This document shows, piece after piece, positions 42,071-56,146 of a stretch of DNA of 64,000 bases; within the stretch, counting starts at the first letter, position 1; each line of letters starts with the position of its first letter. The notes under the pieces are model-generated. The model had not been told where the DNA came from and made no database searches. It saw only the letters and a program-made list of their open reading frames with translations. This stretch comes from Clostridiales bacterium. Its GTDB lineage: Bacteria > Bacillota > Clostridia > Oscillospirales > CAG-272. Where the stretch lies: positions 62,001 to 126,000 of the forward strand of contig JAAVZO010000008.1 in the NCBI GenBank assembly GCA_022791685.1, given 5' to 3'. Both the position numbers and the translations under genes were made by a program.

Positions 42071-43506
42071 ATGAACAAAACGGACAAGTATATCGCACTC
42101 GTTCTTGCCTCGATAATTGCGGGGGGGGGTTATTAGCTTGTACTAATGGTGCGGACGTGCCGGAAACGGACAATAAACCGACAAATAAAGGTGATGAGAT
42201 AACCTCTTTAGATGAAACAAAAATTTATCTCCCCGAAGCTCAGGATTTTAATGATTATGAGTTTACCGCAATTGCTCAGAATAGTAATACGCGTCAGAAC
42301 TTCTATATTGAAGAGCTGAGCGGTGATGTTATAAATGACGCTTTATATCAGCGCGATATCGCTGTCTGTGAACGGCTCAATATTAAATTCAACTTTGTTT
42401 CGGAGACTGATCGCGGAACGGTTACGAATAAAGTTAAAAGTGCTGTACTTGCAGATGATGAGGCTTATGACCTTGTAATAAACTCTTTGTCGGATGGAAT
42501 GAATATGCTTACTGCGAGCGGACTTTTATATGATCTGAAGAATATCCCATATTTGACGCTTGATTCGGAGCTTTGGAATAGCTCTATGCTGGACAATATG
42601 ACAATGGGCGGCAAGCTGTATTTCACTACTGGTTCGCTCTCAGCAACATATTATAAAACTCCAATAGTTATGGCGATGAATCAGCGTGTTGCAAAAAACT
42701 ACAATATCGATGACATTTACGAAACGGTATTGTCAGGCAAGTGGACAGTTGACTTGCTGCATAAACTTACTGCCGATATTTCGCAGGACCTTGACAACAA
42801 CAGTAAAATGGATGAGAATGATTTCTACGGACTTGCATTTGATGGAACCTTTGGCAATGTGCTGTTTAACAGCTCTGGAGTGGACAGTGTAGAAAATGGA
42901 ATGCTTGCGATTGACAGCGAGAGAGCCGTCAGTGTGGTTCAGAAACTCTCATCGCTATTCGGAAATCGTGATATTTATTTTAATGATAAAATTGGTACAG
43001 GCATATCAGCCGATATATTCCGCAATGGAAATGCGTTGTTTACAACTTATACTATAACCGGAATAGTTTCTGGATTTCGCGATATGGAGGATGATTTTGC
43101 AATAATCCCGTCTCCAAAGTATGAAGAATCGCAGGATAAATATTATACCACCTGCAATACATGGCTGCCATCCGGAATCGGAGTACCGATGAATTGTTCA
43201 GATCCAAGTCGTACCGGACTGATCATGGAGACAATGGCGTATTATTCCAACCAATATGTAGCGCCAGCCGTATATGAGACTACACTGCGCGGCAAGGTAG
43301 CGCGCGATGACAGCTCATCTATCATGCTTGATATTATCTATGAGAATGCGTACTTTGATTTAGTTACTGCTATGAATTTGAATGAGACTGCAACTCTGCT
43401 TCGTGACTGTGCTCTTGGAGAAAAGGAAAACTATGTTTCCGAATATCAAAAGATCAAGAATGGCGCTCAGGACGCGCTTGACAAGATAATTGAAGGGGTG
43501 AATTGA
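42071..43506 (+). pseudogene. Extracellular solute-binding lipoprotein, frameshifted at a nine-G run
   Basis: Same family as the other binding lipoproteins here (LSGDVINDALYQRD, SGKWTVDLL). The true start is ATG at 42071 after GGTGG: MNKTDKYIALVLASIIAGGG, then a run of nine G (42121-42129) and TAG. Two bases less, or one more, in the run rejoins the frame and gives L-L-A-C, a perfect lipobox, continuing into the 449-residue ORF of the track. So the gene is whole except for the run length. Either the tract is phase-variable, or it is a sequencing error, or the gene is newly broken. The promoter and ribosome site are intact. Confidence 0.8.
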
Positions 43507-47115: not shown

Positions 47116-47157
47116 AAAAAACCGCTGCCGGATCTCTCCGACAGCGGTAATTTTTTT
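47116..47157. terminator. Bidirectional terminator between yebC and a binding lipoprotein
   Basis: ACCGCTGCCGGA pairs with TCCGACAGCGGT (one bulge), with A run and T run on the two sides. Confidence 0.85.
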
Positions 47158-48682
47158 AGCTTAATTCGTTGTACTTTGTCATTATTTCGGTAAGAGATGC
47201 ATTAAGAGCAGCTTCTCTTTCAGCAACGGTAGAAGCAAAGTTGTCGCAGTACTTCGAATCGTTTATCATGTCACGGATCATCTGCATCCATGTACCAAGG
47301 TCAATGCCGTAAACATACGAAACATCAAGGTAGATATTGTCAACAATGATATCGAGCATACGTGCAGTCAGGTCATCGCGCGAATACTTGACCTTAAGCG
47401 CAGTCTCAAAGTATGCCGGTACTACGCTGCGATAGCTTTCTGCGTTCATTGCTTCGAGGAATGCAGCTGCGCAGTCCGGGATCTGACAGGTCTTCGGAAT
47501 TGCGAAGATTGAGAATCCGTCGTGAGTATAGCCTGTATATTCACTCTGAGATTCATCGAGCTTAGGCATAGGAAGGATACCGTAGTTTGCTTCCATATCT
47601 CTGAGGTAATCTACGCCGCCGAGCATCCAGTGGGTGAAGAGTGCAGTTCCGGCATACAGAGGCTTCATAAGCTTTGCTTCGTTATAGCCTCCGCGGAAGG
47701 TCACGCTCTCGTCATAGATCAGCTTCTTCAGCTGTTCTGCAAACTTTACAGTGCGGTCGTTGAGCATAGAGAACTTGTAGCCGTTTCCGGTATCTTCAAT
47801 GATTCTCGGCATGATTCCGCCGAAGAATCCGTCGCCTGCGAGGGTATCCTGAATGTAGAAGCCGTAGAAGTCGTCTTCATCTGCCTTGGTGTTTCCGTTC
47901 AGGTCCTTGTAAAGTCCGCTGGCATATTTGTTAAGTGCGTCAAATGTCCACTTTCCGTCTTCAACTACTTCATAAAGATTTACGTCGTCGTAGATCTCAG
48001 CGAAGAGGTCGCTGTTGAAGAACATTGCATATGCGCCCGAGATCATGGTCAGCGAGAGCTCACCGGCTGCGGCGAATATCTTTCCATCAATTGCGGAGAG
48101 TTCCATATATGACTGATTCCACCACGGCTTCGAGAAATCGAGGTAGTCGAGCTTGGACATATCCATGTAAAGTCCCTCAAGTACAGAGGACATGGTCCAT
48201 GTCATGTGGTCGGAAACCAAGTCGAAGTCATCAGACTGAGCGAGCACCGAAGTACGGATCTGCGCGGTGTTCTCAGCATGGCGGGTCTTAGTAGTGTTGA
48301 TCACGGTCATCTTAACATTAAGACGATCCTGAATTTTGCTGTTACGCTTGTAGACAGCGTCATTGATGATATCGCCATTCTCACTCTCAGCATTGAATTC
48401 CTGATAAGTGTCGTTATCGCCTGCACGGGTAAGAATGCGGATCTCCTGACCTTCAAAATTGAGATCTGGGAGACTGTCTTCTGCATTATCACGAGTGATC
48501 TCGATAGGCTGTGTATCTACCGTATCGTTCTGAGAATCGGTCGCGTCCGAAGTGTTATCGGGAGTGTTTGTCGGATTATTACCGCAAGCGCTTGTTGCAA
48601 TAATCGAAGACAGAAGAAGAAGTGCGAGTGCAGCCGAAGATATACGGCTGGCTTTTTTGCCATGGTTAAAATTCTTTTCCAT
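47156..48682 (-). CDS. Extracellular solute-binding lipoprotein (ABC sugar-type), orphan
   Basis: Lipoprotein of 508 residues. Signal peptide with lipobox T-S-A-C, Cys33, and an Asn/Asp/Thr linker. Shares SENGDIINDAVYKRN and DGKWTFDALNKYASGLYKDLNGN with the lipoprotein at 1287, to which it looks closest (LDFSKPWWNQS versus LDFDKPWWNKS). Start chosen at 48682 because AAAGGAATATACAC precedes it. No permease genes near. Strong consensus promoter suggests high expression. Confidence 0.82.
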   Translation of the reverse strand: MEKNFNHGKKASRISSAALALLLLSSIIATSACGNNPTNTPDNTSDATDSQNDTVDTQPIEITRDNAEDSLPDLNFEGQEIRILTRAGDNDTYQEFNAESENGDIINDAVYKRNSKIQDRLNVKMTVINTTKTRHAENTAQIRTSVLAQSDDFDLVSDHMTWTMSSVLEGLYMDMSKLDYLDFSKPWWNQSYMELSAIDGKIFAAAGELSLTMISGAYAMFFNSDLFAEIYDDVNLYEVVEDGKWTFDALNKYASGLYKDLNGNTKADEDDFYGFYIQDTLAGDGFFGGIMPRIIEDTGNGYKFSMLNDRTVKFAEQLKKLIYDESVTFRGGYNEAKLMKPLYAGTALFTHWMLGGVDYLRDMEANYGILPMPKLDESQSEYTGYTHDGFSIFAIPKTCQIPDCAAAFLEAMNAESYRSVVPAYFETALKVKYSRDDLTARMLDIIVDNIYLDVSYVYGIDLGTWMQMIRDMINDSKYCDNFASTVAEREAALNASLTEIMTKYNELS

Positions 48683-48731
48683 GTGTATATTCCTTTCTTT
48701 ATTGCTCTGTGCTGTGAGCAACATTCAAATT

Positions 48732-48760
48732 ATTATATCACTATTTATTTAAAATGTCAA
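48732..48760 (-). promoter_or_regulatory. Consensus promoter of the lipoprotein at 48682
   Basis: On the minus strand TTGACA, 17 bases, TATAAT, full match. Confidence 0.78.
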
Positions 48761-48822
48761 TCTGATAAACATAAAAATATTGACTAACACATAAAATTAA
48801 CCGTTTTTTCATGTAAAGTTAA

Positions 48823-48855
48823 AGCAGCCGTACCAGCTTATTCGGTACGACTGCT
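48823..48855 (-). terminator. Terminator after the CotF-like gene
   Basis: AGCAGTCGTACC and GGTACGGCTGCT (one wobble) on the minus strand, followed by TTAACTTT. Confidence 0.75.
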
Positions 48856-48871
48856 ACTTATGCCTGTGGTT

Positions 48872-49321
48872 TTAGCAGTACATATTGTTTGTGCTCATAT
48901 AATCATAGAGTGATTTTCCGTGACCCTGCTCCTGCTTTTGGATCTGATTAAGCATATTGCGTGCTTCCTCGGTCTTGAATTCGAAAATGCAGGTGTCGTA
49001 GAGAGCGGAAACGTGCTTCTCGGTCGAGAGGAGGTCGTAGCAGAGATAGGAGTCCTGCTTCTTCTGCTCGCTGTCCGAGGTGTAGGTCGCACTGAAGGTA
49101 GGCTGATTGCCGGACGACGACTCGATGGTCGGAACAGTGCCATTCATCATTTGAGAGATGATGTCATAGTGCTTCTGCTCAGCCTGTGCGATCTGAGAGA
49201 AGAGGTTCTTCAACTGAGTGTCATTCGCCTGCGACGAGTACTTAGTGTACTTTTCAACGCAGAGCTGTTCTCCGTTCTTTAAGTCCTTTAAGAGATCGGT
49301 TTCCTTCTGATCAAGCTGCAT
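48872..49321 (-). CDS. Spore coat CotF-like protein
   Basis: Protein of 149 residues, helical, ferritin-like, with two halves: DLLKDLKNGEQLCVEKYTKYSSQA at the start and LCYDLLSTEKHVSALYDTCIFEF in the second half. This resembles the Coat_F/ferritin-like proteins of the spore coat. Start at 49321 follows AAAGGAAG. Upstream GTATA, 18 bases, CATAATA resembles a forespore SigG promoter (weak evidence). Monocistronic. Confidence 0.75.
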   Translation of the reverse strand: MQLDQKETDLLKDLKNGEQLCVEKYTKYSSQANDTQLKNLFSQIAQAEQKHYDIISQMMNGTVPTIESSSGNQPTFSATYTSDSEQKKQDSYLCYDLLSTEKHVSALYDTCIFEFKTEEARNMLNQIQKQEQGHGKSLYDYMSTNNMYC

Positions 49322-49397
49322 AATATTGCTTCCTTTCAAAATTATATGGATTGACATCGATTGATGACAATCATATTATGCGCCTGATACTGGAATA

Positions 49398-51425
49398 TTA
49401 TACACGATATTTCAAAAATACATAGCTGCGCTTTTTCTCAAAGCGAACGCGTATCAACTTTTCATCGGAAGCGATTATCTCAAATCCACTGTTTGACTTA
49501 AGCGGCTCGAATTTTGCATTCGCTGGAAGCTTGATATTATATGTATATTCGCTTTCGTTTGACGATTCACGCAGCAGGATCAGATATCCGCTTGAGTAGT
49601 CGACTATCGCCTGAAATCCGGTAAAGCTGATCCCGTCCGGCTCTTCTCCGACCGGAAGTATCTCGGCTGAGTATAGCTTGTCGCGTTCGCGTTTCCATAC
49701 GGCGGTGATATCTGCGAGCTTACTTTGTTGTTCGGAATTCAAATGCTGCATTTCCATCCAGAATAGCGGATTCGACACCATCACCGACGCGAATAGCCAA
49801 TCGATATCGTAATTCACTGGTGCAAGCTCATCACCGGGTGCAGTGGCTTCATATTTATCAGCATTGCGCAGATTGTTGAGTATCTCAAACTGGAACTTGC
49901 GGGCAGGGAATAGCTCAGACAACATCCAGAGATTTTTCAGCGTCGCGTGCGGATAGTAGTTGACAAAGTCGGTATAGCGATTCTCAATGAAAATCGTGCC
50001 GATCTCCTTTTTCGGCAGATATCCAAGCCGCACTCCGGCGGTAATGTCGAGATTGAAGGTCAAGTCAACGCCGCTCTTTTCGCGTGCAAGAGTCAGAAAT
50101 TCACAGATGTGCTTTTCACCAAGCTTGTTTTTCAATGTCATTCCGTCGAGCTTGAACTGGCGTACACCGTATTCGCGGCTGAGCGCTGCAAGACGTTCAG
50201 CGTCACGTTCGAAATTGGCGTAATCGTTGTCGCCGTCGGCGCTGAACCAGAGCGCTAACTCAACGTTATCTGACATCAGCGGTGAAAGTCCGGACGGGAA
50301 CTTTTCAGGATTGACGTTCCAGAACTGCGGGTCTTCGCGGTAGAAGCCGCTCGACCATACCTTGCCTGCTTTCTTAGCAGAGTTCGCGGACAGTCCCTTC
50401 TGCCAGCCATCGTCTATCTGCATTATGTCTACTCCGAGCCGTTCAGCACATTCGCGCTCACGCAGCATGAAGCTTTCGCAAAGTGCAGCGTCACGGCTGC
50501 GGTCGCCCCATGTATTCGACATCGCAAACAGCCGACCAGAGCCAAGGCATACCTTTGAATAATGCCGCTTATACAGTCGCAGGGGATTGTTATATTTGTT
50601 CGCTACGCCGACCGTTGAGCCGTACAGTGTGAGTACCTCGCTGCTGCATAATTCGCCCTCAGTAAGTCCGCTTCCGCATAGATATACATATCCGCTATTG
50701 CGTGACCTTACACGCAGGTCAGCGCCGTTTCGTGCAAGCTGCGAGCTTATGCAGGGGGCTTCCTTGACGACTATCAACTGTTCGCCGTCTATATAATCGT
50801 CGAGCAGAAATATCGAACCGGAATATTGATTTTCCCTGTTGTCGTAAATCAGCTCGCGTGAGCGATGCACGTAGCAGTCGTTGCCGTCGGATTTGTCGGC
50901 GAGCGTTATCGTTTCGACTTTGAGGTGTGCTGGCGAAATGGTGAGACAGTCGATGGTGTCAGGCGCTGGCAGCTTGATTCCAGCTGCGGTAGTATCATGC
51001 GGCGCGTCCTGTTCGATTCCGTCGTCAGAGACAGCGGATTCATTAGCTGCGTTCGATTCGGAGCTCTGTGCATTTGATAGCGACAGAACAGAGAGGGTAG
51101 TTGTAATAAACGGCGAGTTGTCGTAGATCTCGAACAGCTGAATTAGCTTCATTTTTGCTGATTCGTAAGTAAGCTCGGAACACAAATGCTGTTCGGATAG
51201 TCCGCCGTTTTCGCATTCGTATTGCCGGAAGCTGACGCTGCCGCCGAATTCGAAGCCGCAGACGTTGAACATTGCGATATTGTTATCACCGTACCAGCGT
51301 TTACCTGTAATTTTATTGTCTATGTATTCGTTCACCGGATATCCGCCCGCGAGGTTTATGGAACGTTCGATATATTCGTTTCCGATTATGAGTCGGTTGT
51401 TTTCGTATTTACAATAGGAATTCAT
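49398..51425 (-). CDS. GH36-type alpha-galactosidase-like glycosidase
   Basis: Large cytoplasmic enzyme (675 residues, no signal). The catalytic barrel shows WGDRSRDAAL near 306, VDIMQIDDGWQKG near 335 and the nucleophile motif YGVRQFKLDGMT near 415 (K-x-D as in GH36/GH27). The acid/base candidate lies in FNLDITAGVRLGY near 455. The protein differs from common GH36 in its N-terminal domain, so galactose specificity is uncertain. Its ATG overlaps the end of the AraC regulator gene by four bases; the two form an operon and the regulator probably controls it. Confidence 0.78.
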   Translation of the reverse strand: MNSYCKYENNRLIIGNEYIERSINLAGGYPVNEYIDNKITGKRWYGDNNIAMFNVCGFEFGGSVSFRQYECENGGLSEQHLCSELTYESAKMKLIQLFEIYDNSPFITTTLSVLSLSNAQSSESNAANESAVSDDGIEQDAPHDTTAAGIKLPAPDTIDCLTISPAHLKVETITLADKSDGNDCYVHRSRELIYDNRENQYSGSIFLLDDYIDGEQLIVVKEAPCISSQLARNGADLRVRSRNSGYVYLCGSGLTEGELCSSEVLTLYGSTVGVANKYNNPLRLYKRHYSKVCLGSGRLFAMSNTWGDRSRDAALCESFMLRERECAERLGVDIMQIDDGWQKGLSANSAKKAGKVWSSGFYREDPQFWNVNPEKFPSGLSPLMSDNVELALWFSADGDNDYANFERDAERLAALSREYGVRQFKLDGMTLKNKLGEKHICEFLTLAREKSGVDLTFNLDITAGVRLGYLPKKEIGTIFIENRYTDFVNYYPHATLKNLWMLSELFPARKFQFEILNNLRNADKYEATAPGDELAPVNYDIDWLFASVMVSNPLFWMEMQHLNSEQQSKLADITAVWKRERDKLYSAEILPVGEEPDGISFTGFQAIVDYSSGYLILLRESSNESEYTYNIKLPANAKFEPLKSNSGFEIIASDEKLIRVRFEKKRSYVFLKYRV

Positions 51426-52300
51426 ATCTTAGATTCTCTTTCTGATTTATTATATGTATTAAGCTTTGCACACTTCATTTCGGACGGTGTGCAGTTATAC
51501 TCGTCGCGGAATGCACGCAGCATACTTCGCTGACTTTGAAATCCAGATTTTTCCTCTAATTCATTGAGCGTTATTTTGGGGTCTTCATATATAAGCCGCG
51601 CCATTTCGGTAGTTCGCAGTTTTTTGATATAATCAGTAATACTGATTTTCATTACCTGTCTGAATTGTGTTGACAGCTGCTGCGAATTGCAGATAAGCGT
51701 GCGAGATATATCGGATATCAGTATGTGATGTCGGAAATTATTCTGTATATATTCGATTGCCGCTGCAACGATGTCCGTCATAACTATATGTGGAGTCAGC
51801 TTTGATTTTGCTATTACAGTCAAGACTAACGCAGTGGCGACAAGCCGCATTTGCAGTGGAGGCATGTTATCTGGGAACATGTTATTGAATATCCCGCATC
51901 CCCAGTGCATATTAAAAATAAGCTGCATAAAACTGAACAAGGTTTTATTGTCATCGTCGGATATCGTGAGTGTATCGATATCGTAATTATCGAGTACGCT
52001 GCTGCATTCATAGAGCAGATTTCGAGAAATGCTTAAAACATAATATTGCCCCTCGGTTAGGGAATAAAGCGAGTGTACATAAAAGCTCGATATTATCAAT
52101 AAATTGTTAGGCTCGACTAAAATTTTATTTGAGCCTACCGATGCGCTTAGTTTGCCTTCGTGTACATATATAAATTCGAGACAGTTGTGAAAATGCGCGC
52201 CAATATTGACTTCTTTTTGACACCAAGCGGATATATGAGTTTCTTTGTCATGGGAGCTCTCATAGAAGCTTTCATATTGAGTTTCCATACTAATTACCAT
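51422..52300 (-). CDS. AraC family transcriptional regulator
   Basis: Regulator of 292 residues: an N-terminal cupin domain (WCQKEVNIGAHFHNCLEFIYVHEGKL near residue 27) that senses a sugar and a C-terminal double helix-turn-helix (ISDISRTLICNSQQLSTQFRQVMKISITDYIKKLR near 205, then FQSQRSMLRAFRDEYNCTPSEM). Likely controls the coupled GH36 gene and the divergent binding lipoprotein. The start has SD GGAGGT 21 bases upstream with a 7-bp hairpin between them. Confidence 0.9.
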   Translation of the reverse strand: MVISMETQYESFYESSHDKETHISAWCQKEVNIGAHFHNCLEFIYVHEGKLSASVGSNKILVEPNNLLIISSFYVHSLYSLTEGQYYVLSISRNLLYECSSVLDNYDIDTLTISDDDNKTLFSFMQLIFNMHWGCGIFNNMFPDNMPPLQMRLVATALVLTVIAKSKLTPHIVMTDIVAAAIEYIQNNFRHHILISDISRTLICNSQQLSTQFRQVMKISITDYIKKLRTTEMARLIYEDPKITLNELEEKSGFQSQRSMLRAFRDEYNCTPSEMKCAKLNTYNKSERESKI

Positions 52301-52301
52301 G

Positions 52302-52319
52302 ACTTCACGTTAGTGAAGT
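52302..52319 (-). promoter_or_regulatory. Hairpin/operator between SD and start codon of the AraC gene
   Basis: ACTTCAC-GTTA-GTGAAGT, a perfect 7-bp palindrome directly before the ATG at 52300 and after the GGAGGT ribosome site. In RNA it would fold away the long spacer; in DNA it could be an operator. Confidence 0.6.
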
Positions 52320-52371
52320 TTACCTCCGACTCTGATTTTTAAAAATGGCAGTTTCTTTTTGAGTTTTGCTA

Positions 52372-52400
52372 TTTTAATTATATCACAAATATGATAAAAT
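52372..52400 (+). promoter_or_regulatory. Promoter of the binding lipoprotein at 52443
   Basis: TTTTAA, 17 bases, TAAAAT. Overlaps fully with the promoter of the divergent AraC gene. Confidence 0.5.
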
Positions 52401-52405
52401 TACAA
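52377..52405 (-). promoter_or_regulatory. Promoter of the AraC/GH36 operon
   Basis: On the minus strand TTGTAA, 17 bases, TATAAT. Its -10 overlaps the -35 of the opposite promoter and the reverse. Confidence 0.6.
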
Positions 52406-52442
52406 GTAGAAAAAATCCCAATATTCACGGAGGAATATTAAA

Positions 52443-53879
52443 ATGAAAAAAGTTATTGCGATTTGTTTGCTGGCTTCAATGGCAGCGGCGATGTTAGCTT
52501 GCGGCGACACCGATAAGCCGACTGACGTTACAACCGAATCAACAGACTCTGAGTCGAGCGATGCTGCGGAAAGGGAATATCAATTTCCGCGCTACGACGG
52601 ATACGAGTTCACCGTGCTGAATGCCGGCGATGTTTACAGTATGCACGGTAATATTGACACCGAAGCTACCGGAGAGCTGCTCAGCGACACGATGTATAAC
52701 CGCTGCCGCACGTTGGAGGATAAGACCGGTATCAAGTTTATTGAGACAACAAAGCACGTTGACAGTGAGCTTGCCGATCATGCTATGCAGGTAATAATGG
52801 CTAACGAAGATCTGTATGATTTGTTTTTTGTACCGGCTCGAAGCGTTTATAGATTTGCAAGTGAAGGATGCCTGCATAATTTGCTTGATTATGATGAATT
52901 CAACTTTGACAAGTCGTGGTGGCTCAGCAACTACAACAGTAAAAGCACTATAAACGGCTCGCTTTATGCTGCGGCAAGCTATACGCAGCTGATGATAGTC
53001 GACTCTGTATGGGCAGTGTACTACAATGAAACAATGGGCGAAAATCTGAAGCTCGATACACCGTACCAGACAGTACTCGACGGCAAATGGACGCTCGATG
53101 TTATGAACACCTATATGGCGGCTGCGGCAAACCTTAACGGTGACAATGATTTCAAGTTCCGCGCTGATGGAAATGCTACATATGGAATTGCGCATGAAAA
53201 TCCACAGACATTTTTATCTGGAGCTGATGAGACATTTCTTGATAATGACAACGGCAAGCTTGTATTTACCGGTGGTTCAGAGCGTTTTTACGATGTGTTA
53301 TCAAAGCTTGTCAGCATATTTGATGAGAGTGATGGACGCTGGCAGTGGAATCGTGTCAAAGGCTCAGACGATGAACCCGGTCATGCTGTATACGCATTTG
53401 AGCACGAACGAGCACTTATGTCTATGATTGAGATAGCTAAGACTAACCGTATGCGTGACAAAAGCTATTCGTTTGGTATACTACCTCTACCAAAATATGA
53501 TGAATTACAGGAAAATTATGTAAGCACACCATTTTACGGTTTTCCTGCAATGTCAATCCCTGTAACGGTAAGCGACCCAGAGCGTTCGGCTGCAATTGGA
53601 GACGCGCTTGCATATCTGAGTTATGATATGGTATGGCCGGTATTCCGTCATACTACTCTTGAACAGAAAAATCTGCGAAATGAGGAATCTATTGAGATGA
53701 TGGACGTTATAATAAATTCTGTTGTTCCGGATTTAGTATACATATATAGCGAAGGCTGCATTAGTATGCGTGATAATATTCAGGCGTACATCAAGGATGG
53801 CAAGAGCGAATTTGCGTCACTTGTTGCTCAGTATGAGGAGCAGATAAAGACCGAGCTCGCCAAAATAAACGGAGACTGA
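52443..53879 (+). CDS. Extracellular solute-binding lipoprotein (ABC sugar-type)
   Basis: Lipoprotein of 478 residues. Signal with lipobox M-L-A-C (Cys20) and an acidic Thr/Ser linker. Shares DGKWTLDVMNTY and FDKSWWLSNYNSKSTINGSLYAAAS with the other lipoproteins here, though more distant (EATGELLSDTMYNRC in place of NGDVINDAVYERN). Divergent from the AraC/GH36 operon, so it probably captures the sugar handled there. Ribosome site GGAGGA. Confidence 0.82.
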   Translation: MKKVIAICLLASMAAAMLACGDTDKPTDVTTESTDSESSDAAEREYQFPRYDGYEFTVLNAGDVYSMHGNIDTEATGELLSDTMYNRCRTLEDKTGIKFIETTKHVDSELADHAMQVIMANEDLYDLFFVPARSVYRFASEGCLHNLLDYDEFNFDKSWWLSNYNSKSTINGSLYAAASYTQLMIVDSVWAVYYNETMGENLKLDTPYQTVLDGKWTLDVMNTYMAAAANLNGDNDFKFRADGNATYGIAHENPQTFLSGADETFLDNDNGKLVFTGGSERFYDVLSKLVSIFDESDGRWQWNRVKGSDDEPGHAVYAFEHERALMSMIEIAKTNRMRDKSYSFGILPLPKYDELQENYVSTPFYGFPAMSIPVTVSDPERSAAIGDALAYLSYDMVWPVFRHTTLEQKNLRNEESIEMMDVIINSVVPDLVYIYSEGCISMRDNIQAYIKDGKSEFASLVAQYEEQIKTELAKINGD

Positions 53880-53895
53880 TCTGGAGTAAATGAAT

Positions 53896-53937
53896 AAAGC
53901 TGCACCAAGTAACTGATTGCTTGGTGCAGCTTTACTG
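53896..53937 (+). terminator. Terminator of the lipoprotein gene
   Basis: AAAGCTGCACCAAG and CTTGGTGCAGCTTT, perfect 14-bp stem, then TACTGTTTG. Confidence 0.85.
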
Positions 53938-53951
53938 TTTGTTATAAAAAC

Positions 53952-53982
53952 TTTGCGCGCGTCAAAGCTGGCGCGCGCAAAA
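53952..53982 (-). terminator. Terminator of the Gfo/Idh gene
   Basis: On the minus strand TTTGCGCGCGCCAG and a complementary GACGCGCGCAAA stem followed by GTTTTTAT. Confidence 0.8.
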
Positions 53983-54003
53983 TATTCAATTAAAATACCG
54001 AGA

Positions 54004-55167
54004 TTAAACCTCAGGCATAACGATTTCGATTTCCTTGCCTGCTTCAGCCGACTTAACGATACCGTCAAGAATAGCCTGATTCTTAATGATCTGGCTGGAC
54101 GGAACAGGAGCTGCGCCGCCGTTCTTGATAGCGTCGAGGAAAGAACGAACCTTCTTGTAGAAGAGTCCCTGACCTCTGTTCTGGATGATCGGAACAACGG
54201 TCTCTACTCTTGCGCCTGCAACATCGTGGTAAATCTTCATCGGACCGCCAACAGTGCCGTTCCAGCAGTCGGTAGACGGGATGCGGAGTGCAGCCTTCTT
54301 ACCGAAGATGATGGTGTCACCGGGAGTGTCAACGTGCATAGCCCATGCGATTCTGAAGTCGAGGATGATTCCGTCCTTATCGCCGTACTTGCCGGGCTCG
54401 AGACGGATGAAAGCTGCTGCGAAGTCATCAACGTCGAAACGCTTTGCGTCATACTCAGACTGATATTCAGTGCTGGTGCCGAAGAAGTTGGACTTGTATG
54501 CCGAAATGGTCTTAGGAGTCGGGTAACCGATAGCGTTAAGTACCATATCGAGCGAGTAGCATCCGATATCGCCAAGAGCGCCGATACCACCGGTTCTCTT
54601 CTCGATGAAGGTCGAGTTCGGAATGCCGCGGCGGCGACCGCCACCGGTCTGGATGTAGTAGATCTCGCCGAGAGTGCCCGACTCAACGATCTTCTTGATC
54701 ATCTGCATATTTGCGTCATATCTGGGCTGGAAACCGATAGAAAGAATCTTTCCGCTCTTCTTTTCAGCCTTAACGATCTCAGCAGCCTCGTCGAGAGTTA
54801 CGCACATCGGCTTCTCGAGCAGTACGTTTACGCCATGCTCAAGAGCGTAGATGGTGCACTCTGCGTGAGTTACGTTATAGGTGCAGACGCTGACTGCGTC
54901 GAGCTCCTCATTGTCGATCATGGACTTGTGATCAGGGTAGAAGTGAACGTCACCCTTAACGCCCCATTTTTCCTTGAAAGCTTCTGCCTTGCCTGGAATG
55001 AGGTCTGCCATTGCAACTACCTCAACATCGGGCATTTCGTTGTACTGCTGGATGTGCGACTCTGCGATCCAACCTGTACCAATAATACCTACCTTCAGCT
55101 TCTTGCTGTCGTCGATCTTCTTCTCAGCAACAGCCTGCTGAAATTGGCCTAATACTTCATCAGCCAT
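54004..55167 (-). CDS. Gfo/Idh/MocA family oxidoreductase
   Basis: NAD(P)-dependent sugar dehydrogenase, 387 residues. An unusual 22-residue leader precedes the Rossmann motif VGIIGTGWIAESHIQQY near residue 27. LLEKPMCVTLDEAAEIV near 113 carries E-K-P, and GIGALGDIGCYSLDMVLNAIG near 190 has the conserved D-x-x-x-Y/H region. Different subgroup from the one at 33796. Ribosome site GGAGGA; its own promoter upstream. The gene may belong with the neighbouring sugar locus. Confidence 0.9.
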   Translation of the reverse strand: MADEVLGQFQQAVAEKKIDDSKKLKVGIIGTGWIAESHIQQYNEMPDVEVVAMADLIPGKAEAFKEKWGVKGDVHFYPDHKSMIDNEELDAVSVCTYNVTHAECTIYALEHGVNVLLEKPMCVTLDEAAEIVKAEKKSGKILSIGFQPRYDANMQMIKKIVESGTLGEIYYIQTGGGRRRGIPNSTFIEKRTGGIGALGDIGCYSLDMVLNAIGYPTPKTISAYKSNFFGTSTEYQSEYDAKRFDVDDFAAAFIRLEPGKYGDKDGIILDFRIAWAMHVDTPGDTIIFGKKAALRIPSTDCWNGTVGGPMKIYHDVAGARVETVVPIIQNRGQGLFYKKVRSFLDAIKNGGAAPVPSSQIIKNQAILDGIVKSAEAGKEIEIVMPEV

Positions 55168-55270
55168 TTTAGTAATCCTCCGTAAATTGTAAAAGTGTGC
55201 AAGTAAAAGTGCTGCGGGAAGCCCCGCTTGCGGACTACCGCCCGGTTAGCCTTATCCAATGCACATCTAT

Positions 55271-55299
55271 ATTATAAATCATATTTCCGGATTTTGCAA
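55271..55299 (-). promoter_or_regulatory. Promoter of the Gfo/Idh gene
   Basis: On the minus strand TTGCAA, 17 bases, TATAAT. The leader of about 95 bases contains a small GCGGG/CCCGC hairpin. Confidence 0.65.
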
Positions 55300-55384
55300 T
55301 ACCTTTTTGAAAAAAATTATTATTTTTTCAAATTTTTTATTTTTGTTTAGCAATGTTAAAAAGTATACACTTTCTATACATTAT

Positions 55385-56146
55385 TTATATTCTAATTTTA
55401 AATTCATCGTATTCGAATGATCCGCCGCCGTGATGAAGCTTACCGTCGGCTTGCAGCTGGCGGAAAGCGTCACGTATGCGCATAATGATCGTTGGCTCAA
55501 TATCGAGCGAATGATGCCCCGGGAATATTCGTGCTGACGAAAGAAGCGATATTTTTTCGAGCGATTCAAGATATGCGTTAGGGTCAGTAGATGGATAATG
55601 CGCAAACAGCGTGCCGCGATAAACTAAGTCGCCGCTGTAAAGATACCCTCTCGTGGGTTCAAAAAAGCACATATGTCCAGGCGAGTGTCCCGGTGTGTGA
55701 ATTACCTCTACAGTGCGTCCGCCGAGGTCGATCATGTCGCCGTCTGATAATATTCGTGTTGGAATCCCACTGAATATCTCATAGCGGTCTATATCAAACT
55801 CATTCGGAAGCTCACATCCTTCAGTTACCATATGCTTTACTGCCTCAAGCGGGAGAGGGAATCTTTCAGTGAGCCACGATACCTCAGCGTTGTGTACGTA
55901 AAAATCCGGGAAATACCTATGCCCGCCGATGTGGTCCCAGTGTACATGAGTTGCTGCGGCGATCACGGGCTTGTCAGTGAGTCGGATAACTTCATCATAT
56001 ATGTTCCCGATACCAAGTCCGGTGTCAATGATCAATGCACGTTCTTGCCCGATAATCAGGTAGCAGTGAGTCTCCTCTTGATGGTAGTACTCGCTTATTA
56101 TATACGTGTCTTCATCAATTTTATTTATCGTGTACCAGTCGTTCAT
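55385..56146 (-). CDS. MBL-fold metallohydrolase
   Basis: Protein of 253 residues with the metallo-beta-lactamase fold: THVHWDHIGGH at residues 66-76 (metal ligands H-x-H-x-D-H), HTPGHSPGHMCFFEP near 135 and SGDLVYRGTLF near 155, and FPGHHSLD near 193. Substrate unknown; glyoxalase II-like or lactonase-like proteins share this pattern. Last gene of a three-gene operon; each start overlaps the previous stop by four bases. Confidence 0.9.
   Translation of the reverse strand: MNDWYTINKIDEDTYIISEYYHQEETHCYLIIGQERALIIDTGLGIGNIYDEVIRLTDKPVIAAATHVHWDHIGGHRYFPDFYVHNAEVSWLTERFPLPLEAVKHMVTEGCELPNEFDIDRYEIFSGIPTRILSDGDMIDLGGRTVEVIHTPGHSPGHMCFFEPTRGYLYSGDLVYRGTLFAHYPSTDPNAYLESLEKISLLSSARIFPGHHSLDIEPTIIMRIRDAFRQLQADGKLHHGGGSFEYDEFKIRI

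Follow-up and report, generated by a model that had tools for sequence, protein, structure and literature searches.

Predicted interlocked divergent promoters between an AraC-type regulator gene and a lipoprotein gene are conserved in related loci

Genes and features of the locus

The window, that is, the whole 64-kb stretch of DNA that was analyzed, contains a 142-bp intergenic region between a leftward gene for an AraC-type regulator and a rightward gene for a solute-binding-protein-like lipoprotein. The following features were recognized:

49398..51425, minus strand: GH36/clan GH-D alpha-galactosidase-like protein (relatives match Melibiase)
51422..52300, minus strand: AraC-type regulator, 292 aa (Pfam HTH_18 1e-12, HTH_AraC 9e-8)
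52302..52319, minus strand: hairpin with a 7-bp stem, ACTTCAC-TAAC-GTGAAGT, between the AraC ribosome-binding site (52322-52326) and the ATG (52298-52300)
52346..52350, plus strand: TGGCA, distal box of a 21-bp direct repeat, candidate half-site for AraC (occupies a fixed column when homologous loci are aligned)
52367..52371, plus strand: TGCTA, proximal box of the direct repeat, directly adjacent to the rightward -35 and over the predicted start of the leftward transcript
52372..52405, no strand: predicted interlocked promoter pair, 34-bp quasi-palindrome (direct reading; zero-mismatch match to the symmetric pattern)
52372..52377, plus strand: lipoprotein promoter -35, TTTTAA (3/6 consensus match)
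52377..52385, minus strand: AraC promoter extended -10, TGA-TATAAT (TG 52385-52384, TATAAT 52382-52377)
52392..52400, plus strand: lipoprotein promoter extended -10, TGA-TAAAAT (TG 52392-52393, TAAAAT 52395-52400)
52400..52405, minus strand: AraC promoter -35, TTGTAA
52443..53879, plus strand: solute-binding-protein-like lipoprotein, 478 aa, lipobox LACG (homology to window paralogs)

The C-terminal double HTH of the AraC protein scored 48.6 bits with HTH_18 (cut-off 33.6) and 32.5 bits with HTH_AraC (cut-off 26.6). Its N-terminus reached 22.2 bits with Cupin_2, below the cut-off of 27.2, and several relatives pass AraC_binding. A protein search of the genome contigs with this regulator revealed distant AraC proteins only; the genome contains at least 27 AraC-type matches. 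The gap between the ribosome-binding site and the ATG of the AraC gene is about 21 nt, and folding of the hairpin would restore a normal distance. This hairpin is absent from the ortholog in genome G003, the folding of the AraC leader RNA is ordinary (z -0.45), and no Rfam match was found in 48000-56000.

The GH36-like gene overlaps the AraC stop codon by 4 bp (ATGA), and therefore co-transcription of the two genes is likely in this genome. The GH36-like protein itself had no direct family match up to E=1. Four of its six relatives scored above the Melibiase cut-off, and the profile of its family matches the alpha-galactosidase of PDB 2xn0 (2.6e-7).

For the lipoprotein, no direct Pfam or PDB match was found, and only its paralogs suggest a solute-binding-like protein. 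Among the window paralogs, one weakly matches SBP_bac_1; the scores with SBP families are 24.2 bits for a paralog and 23.7 bits for a homolog, below the cut-off of 26. There are no permease genes beside the lipoprotein gene; a lone solute-binding lipoprotein is at best one component of uptake. A strong terminator-like hairpin of 18 pairs (53895-53934) directly follows the gene, which suggests that it forms a single-gene unit. In total, four diverged paralogs of such orphan lipoproteins are encoded in the 64 kb (1287-2804, 42157-43506, 47156-48724 and 52443-53879). AlphaFold models were too poor both for the lipoprotein (mean pLDDT 39.9, 4-row alignment) and for the GH36-like protein (35.6).

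The interlocked promoter pair

An earlier sequence-only reading had placed two divergent promoters in this region, each with a 17-bp spacer and each with its -10 hexamer over the -35 of the other. All four hexamers are indeed present (TTTTAA-17-TAAAAT rightward and TTGTAA-17-TATAAT leftward), and the overlap is exactly one base per side, at 52377 and 52400. Two features had not been included in that reading, namely the TG of both extended -10 elements and the 21-bp direct repeat. The 34-bp element carries promoter hexamers for both directions, and of its 17 symmetric positions 13 are complementary.

The leftward (AraC) promoter matches the consensus at 10 of 12 positions and has an extended -10, and the rightward (lipoprotein) promoter matches at 8 of 12, its -35 being poor. 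A generic promoter scan gave an alternative rightward match, TTGCTA-18-TATGAT at 52366-52395 (9/12), which some relatives lack. From a 7-nt spacing, the rightward start is predicted near 52407; the leftward start is predicted near 52370. The predicted starts are thus about 37 bp apart and the -10 elements are separate (52377-82 and 52395-400). The core elements of both promoters occupy the same 34 bp, and on these steric grounds polymerase would not be expected to hold both, in line with the earlier proposal that it can occupy only one promoter at a time.

The 34-bp pattern has a single match in the window, even when up to two mismatches are allowed. When the 142-bp intergenic region was dinucleotide-shuffled and judged by the consensus criterion of the sequence-only reading, 0.17% of the shuffles contained an equally good interlocked pair. 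Given the number of regions that a reader scans, this rate is modest; we consider it suggestive but weak when taken alone.

Conservation in related loci

The AraC protein of the window was searched against six genomes of the genus. In G003, the genes for its ortholog (47%) and for a lipoprotein ortholog (56%) point away from each other, and no GH36-like gene is found at that locus. A paralog from the same genome as the window (33%) and the AraC protein of a second G003 locus (28%) both face solute-binding lipoproteins. The AraC/solute-binding-protein pairs from these genomes align across both promoters and the flanking arm, while the remaining spacer diverges. The aligned spacers contain a single conserved block, TTTTGCyATTknmATTwTAnCrynnwTwTGmTAwAATwRCAA, which spans both promoters.

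TTNNNATTNTANCANNNNNNTGNTANAATNNNAA, a symmetric pattern that describes a pair of interlocked promoters with extended -10 elements, had 15 zero-mismatch matches in 295 genomes of the family, versus 0 for the reversed control. Thirteen of the 15 are intergenic between an AraC gene and a divergent neighbour, the partners being solute-binding lipoproteins (6), DUF2961 proteins (5) and type I phosphodiesterase-like proteins (2). A further locus with two mismatches faces an HpcH/HpaI-aldolase-like protein (product read from sequence). It should be noted that six of the 15 matches were already known before the pattern was fixed; seven of the nine new ones are AraC-divergent. The loci are not independent of each other, since they comprise one AraC clade, one DUF2961 clade and two near-identical phosphodiesterase loci.

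Five matches were found outside the family, in 392 genomes from elsewhere in the class, and none of them adjoins an AraC gene. Among one-mismatch sites, one of the 25 loci checked lies beside AraC (L100, adjoining a sugar-symporter-like gene). As such sites seldom adjoin AraC, and those from elsewhere in the class never do, the strict element is AraC-specific in the family. The looser one-mismatch pattern was dropped as a marker, as most of its matches in the family have no adjoining AraC gene.

The one-base interlock is kept across AraC proteins that are 25-47% identical to that of the window, with changing partner genes, and in other loci as many as 14 of the 17 symmetric positions are paired. 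As far as the compared sequences go, it is this conservation, and not the shuffle statistic, that is the decisive evidence for the element. The same comparison does not favour the uptake-versus-hydrolase logic that had been suggested for the locus. The GH36-like gene is joined to AraC in this genome alone among the loci seen, and its 61% relative in genome G001 has no adjoining AraC gene; what is conserved is the pairing of AraC with one varying divergent gene.

Near-identical copies of TTTACTTTTTACCGGAAGAATGATATAATAGTAA were observed in G001 (C10, C46, C55, C105, C110 and C111), mostly near contig ends. They probably represent a repeated or mobile element.

AraC proteins that carry the element

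In a quick tree of 112 AraC proteins, the window protein belongs to a clade of 13 rows (support 99), 11 of which are interlocked, ten at no more than one mismatch and one at two mismatches. The exceptions are L003, which has three mismatches and, within the stretch seen, lacks a divergent partner gene (the one case observed in which a missing partner coincides with a decayed outward -10), and L010, found by protein search, in which the element is absent upstream of the predicted start. Ten rows of the clade came from the protein search alone, and eight of these ten are interlocked. The DUF2961-linked AraC set is interlocked in five cases out of five, all of them found via the pattern.

Independent promoter calls revealed this offset in only 3-4 of the 60 AraC-divergent pairs of the genus. 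Therefore, it is a property of the clade and not a rule for AraC genes, and general use of this offset by AraC-divergent pairs was rejected.

A candidate AraC operator and the asymmetry of the two directions

In the 16 loci aligned by the element, conservation outside the promoters is found mainly on the AraC side, where TGkCA and TGyyA boxes occupy fixed columns. Of 17 repeat distances compared in these loci (lags 10 to 26), lag 21 showed the highest identity, in five adjacent registers. Seven of the nine loci of the solute-binding/aldolase group have the distal box in its column and eight of nine the proximal box, versus never more than three of nine in any column of shuffled flanks (5000 shuffles). 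Counted from the predicted rightward start (52407), the first bases of the two boxes are at about -61 and -40. Counted from the predicted leftward start (52370), the distal box spans about +21 to +25 and the proximal box lies over the start.

AraC proteins usually bind direct repeats, and an AraC dimer on two direct half-sites activates at the -35 and represses its own gene. The repeat shows such a layout: in the aligned loci the two candidate half-sites have the same orientation and a spacing of about 21 bp, and the inner one is located at the -35 of the target. The 21-bp direct repeat is thus a candidate AraC operator.

The third position of the -35 is G in 16 of 16 AraC-directed promoters versus 5 of 16 outward ones (p = 7e-5, for sequences that are not independent), so the two directions appear to be under different constraint. 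The overall -35 match counts are alike (4.6 outward versus 4.4 AraC-directed), and therefore we attribute the G asymmetry to a constraint that the adjoining AraC site imposes and do not take it to prove that the outward promoter is weaker; the outward preference for TTT might be nothing more than the AraC site extending into the -35. That the AraC promoter is the default is true of the window but is not a rule, as the outward -35s are not weaker overall by match count.

Proposed mechanism and alternatives

The elements, their interlock, the direct repeat and their conservation are read directly from the sequence. On this basis, we propose that the 142-bp region would act as one quasi-symmetric polymerase site, formed by two interlocked sigma-A-type promoters that lead leftward to AraC and rightward to the lipoprotein. 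With little active AraC, polymerase could use the better leftward promoter, and AraC and the GH36-like protein would be made. Ligand-bound AraC would occupy the two direct-repeat boxes 21 bp apart (52346-52371), touch the weak rightward -35 and recruit polymerase toward the lipoprotein gene (class II-like activation), also covering predicted positions +1 to +25 of its own transcript. Since the promoters interlock, polymerase held rightward could not start leftward, and induction and self-repression would be one event. We infer here the starts, the binding of AraC, the direction of the ligand effect and the exclusion in vivo. In its general form, a single regulated landing site for RNA polymerase, at which ligand-bound AraC would turn on the outward gene and obstruct its own promoter while the interlock enforces exclusion, is in our opinion a reasonably probable explanation.

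The compact either/or switch suggested by the sequence-only reading stands in part. The interlock is real, but interlocking alone need not make a switch, because at E. coli bidirectional promoters basal competition between polymerases is negligible and appears once one direction is activated (Warman et al. 2026, PMC12825309); a regulator site is needed. The switch would come from AraC, with the interlocking making it exclusive. Counting against this model, bound activators alone left divergent transcription unblocked in E. coli (PMC12825309).

The element could also be mainly a symmetric AraC operator, i.e., a repressor site whose promoter look is partly a by-product, with bound AraC shutting both directions until ligand is present. 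Such a site would account for the extent of pairing among the 17 symmetric positions (13 in the window, as many as 14 elsewhere) and for the weaker mirror-side arm, CTA/TAG beside each -35. However, the positions that never vary make up two promoters with extended -10 elements and spacers of 17 bp (in part a consequence of how the pattern was built), and the outer arms are symmetric only in part. Moreover, the clear repeat is direct, one-sided and at lag 21, with a weaker signal on the other side, which agrees with the usual binding mode of AraC proteins, and we regard a symmetric operator as rather improbable.

It is likewise unlikely that two ordinary promoters just happen to sit close together, exclusion being incidental, basal activity too low for competition and AraC controlling the lipoprotein only. 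The absence of basal competition at the E. coli bidirectional promoters (PMC12825309) and the other offsets of most of the 60 AraC-divergent pairs in the genus are consistent with this view, but the exact one-base interlock is kept across such diverged AraC proteins and changing partners. A chance origin, in which an AT-rich spacer carries promoter look-alikes and the true starts lie elsewhere, is hardly credible: the region is AT-rich, the rightward promoter reaches only 8/12 and an alternative rightward match exists at 52366-52395, yet the element is conserved in 16 loci with zero control matches.

Comparison with known systems

The bidirectional promoters described by Warman et al. share their -10 element, and their starts are 10, 18 or 23 bp apart (PMC12825309). 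Like them, the regulated landing site proposed here is pseudo-symmetric DNA that, judging from its sequence, should be able to bind polymerase in either orientation; activating one direction of those promoters can repress the other, and several of them pair a regulator gene with its target, as we propose for this locus. Unlike those promoters, the element described here has two distinct -10s, each of which has one base in common with the -35 of the opposite direction, and about 37 bp separate the predicted starts; the regulator belongs to the AraC family and has a candidate direct-repeat site beside one -35. The element may therefore work like these bidirectional promoters but lacks the shared -10 that defines them.

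In the Pc/Pr pair of plasmid pLS20, the Pr start is 6 bp upstream of the Pc -35 box (PMC4207663). The geometry is near-identical to that described here, where the corresponding predicted distance is 2 bp, the core elements of both directions overlap and a regulator gene faces its target. In contrast, the pLS20 regulator is RcoLS20, a repressor/activator that acts with DNA looping and without an AraC site, and the genes concerned are conjugation genes (PMC4207663).

No AraC-controlled overlapping divergent promoters were found in the literature searched, which is weak evidence as subscription papers were mostly outside its reach. The layout resembles that of E. coli araC/araBAD, where direct half-sites are about 21 bp apart, the inner one is next to or over the target -35 and AraC represses its own synthesis; unlike here, the divergent promoters of araC/araBAD are well separated, and CRP and looping sites are present. 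The same three protein types occur in the streptococcal msm/raf sugar loci, which encode the AraC-type MsmR/RafR, a GH36 alpha-galactosidase and a solute-binding protein. Those are full operons with permease genes, whereas here the binding protein is alone and the GH36-like gene is not conserved with AraC. Overlapping divergent promoters are thus already known; what may be new is that a candidate direct-repeat AraC site accompanies them, and does so at many loci.

It can be tentatively suggested that the 34-bp double promoter, palindromic and interlocked, forms a portable cassette together with an AraC gene and a single asymmetric AraC site that sets the direction of polymerase, and that this cassette has been coupled to different sugar-related partners. 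If it arose or was retained in two AraC lineages, the exclusion between regulator and target may itself have been selected. Recent work has described bidirectional promoters as common among bacteria, with next to nothing known of how they are controlled. The loci provide a naturally replicated series with one geometry, several AraC proteins and several partner genes, suitable for testing whether forced regulator/target exclusion is selected and how an AraC activator sets the direction of polymerase. The series also predicts operators for uncharacterised AraC regulators of the family.

Other arrangements of divergent promoters were observed as well. A second near-palindromic divergent pair (plus strand TTGACA-17-TATTAT, minus strand TTGTCA-18-TATAAT, -10s 33 bp apart) is located at 49341-49379 of the window, upstream of a CotF/ferritin-like gene, and its plus side reads antisense into the GH36-like gene. 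At four AraC-divergent pairs (L048, L052, L129 and L132) the best promoters have their -10s 34 bp apart with the -35s crossed between them, which is possibly another recurrent geometry.
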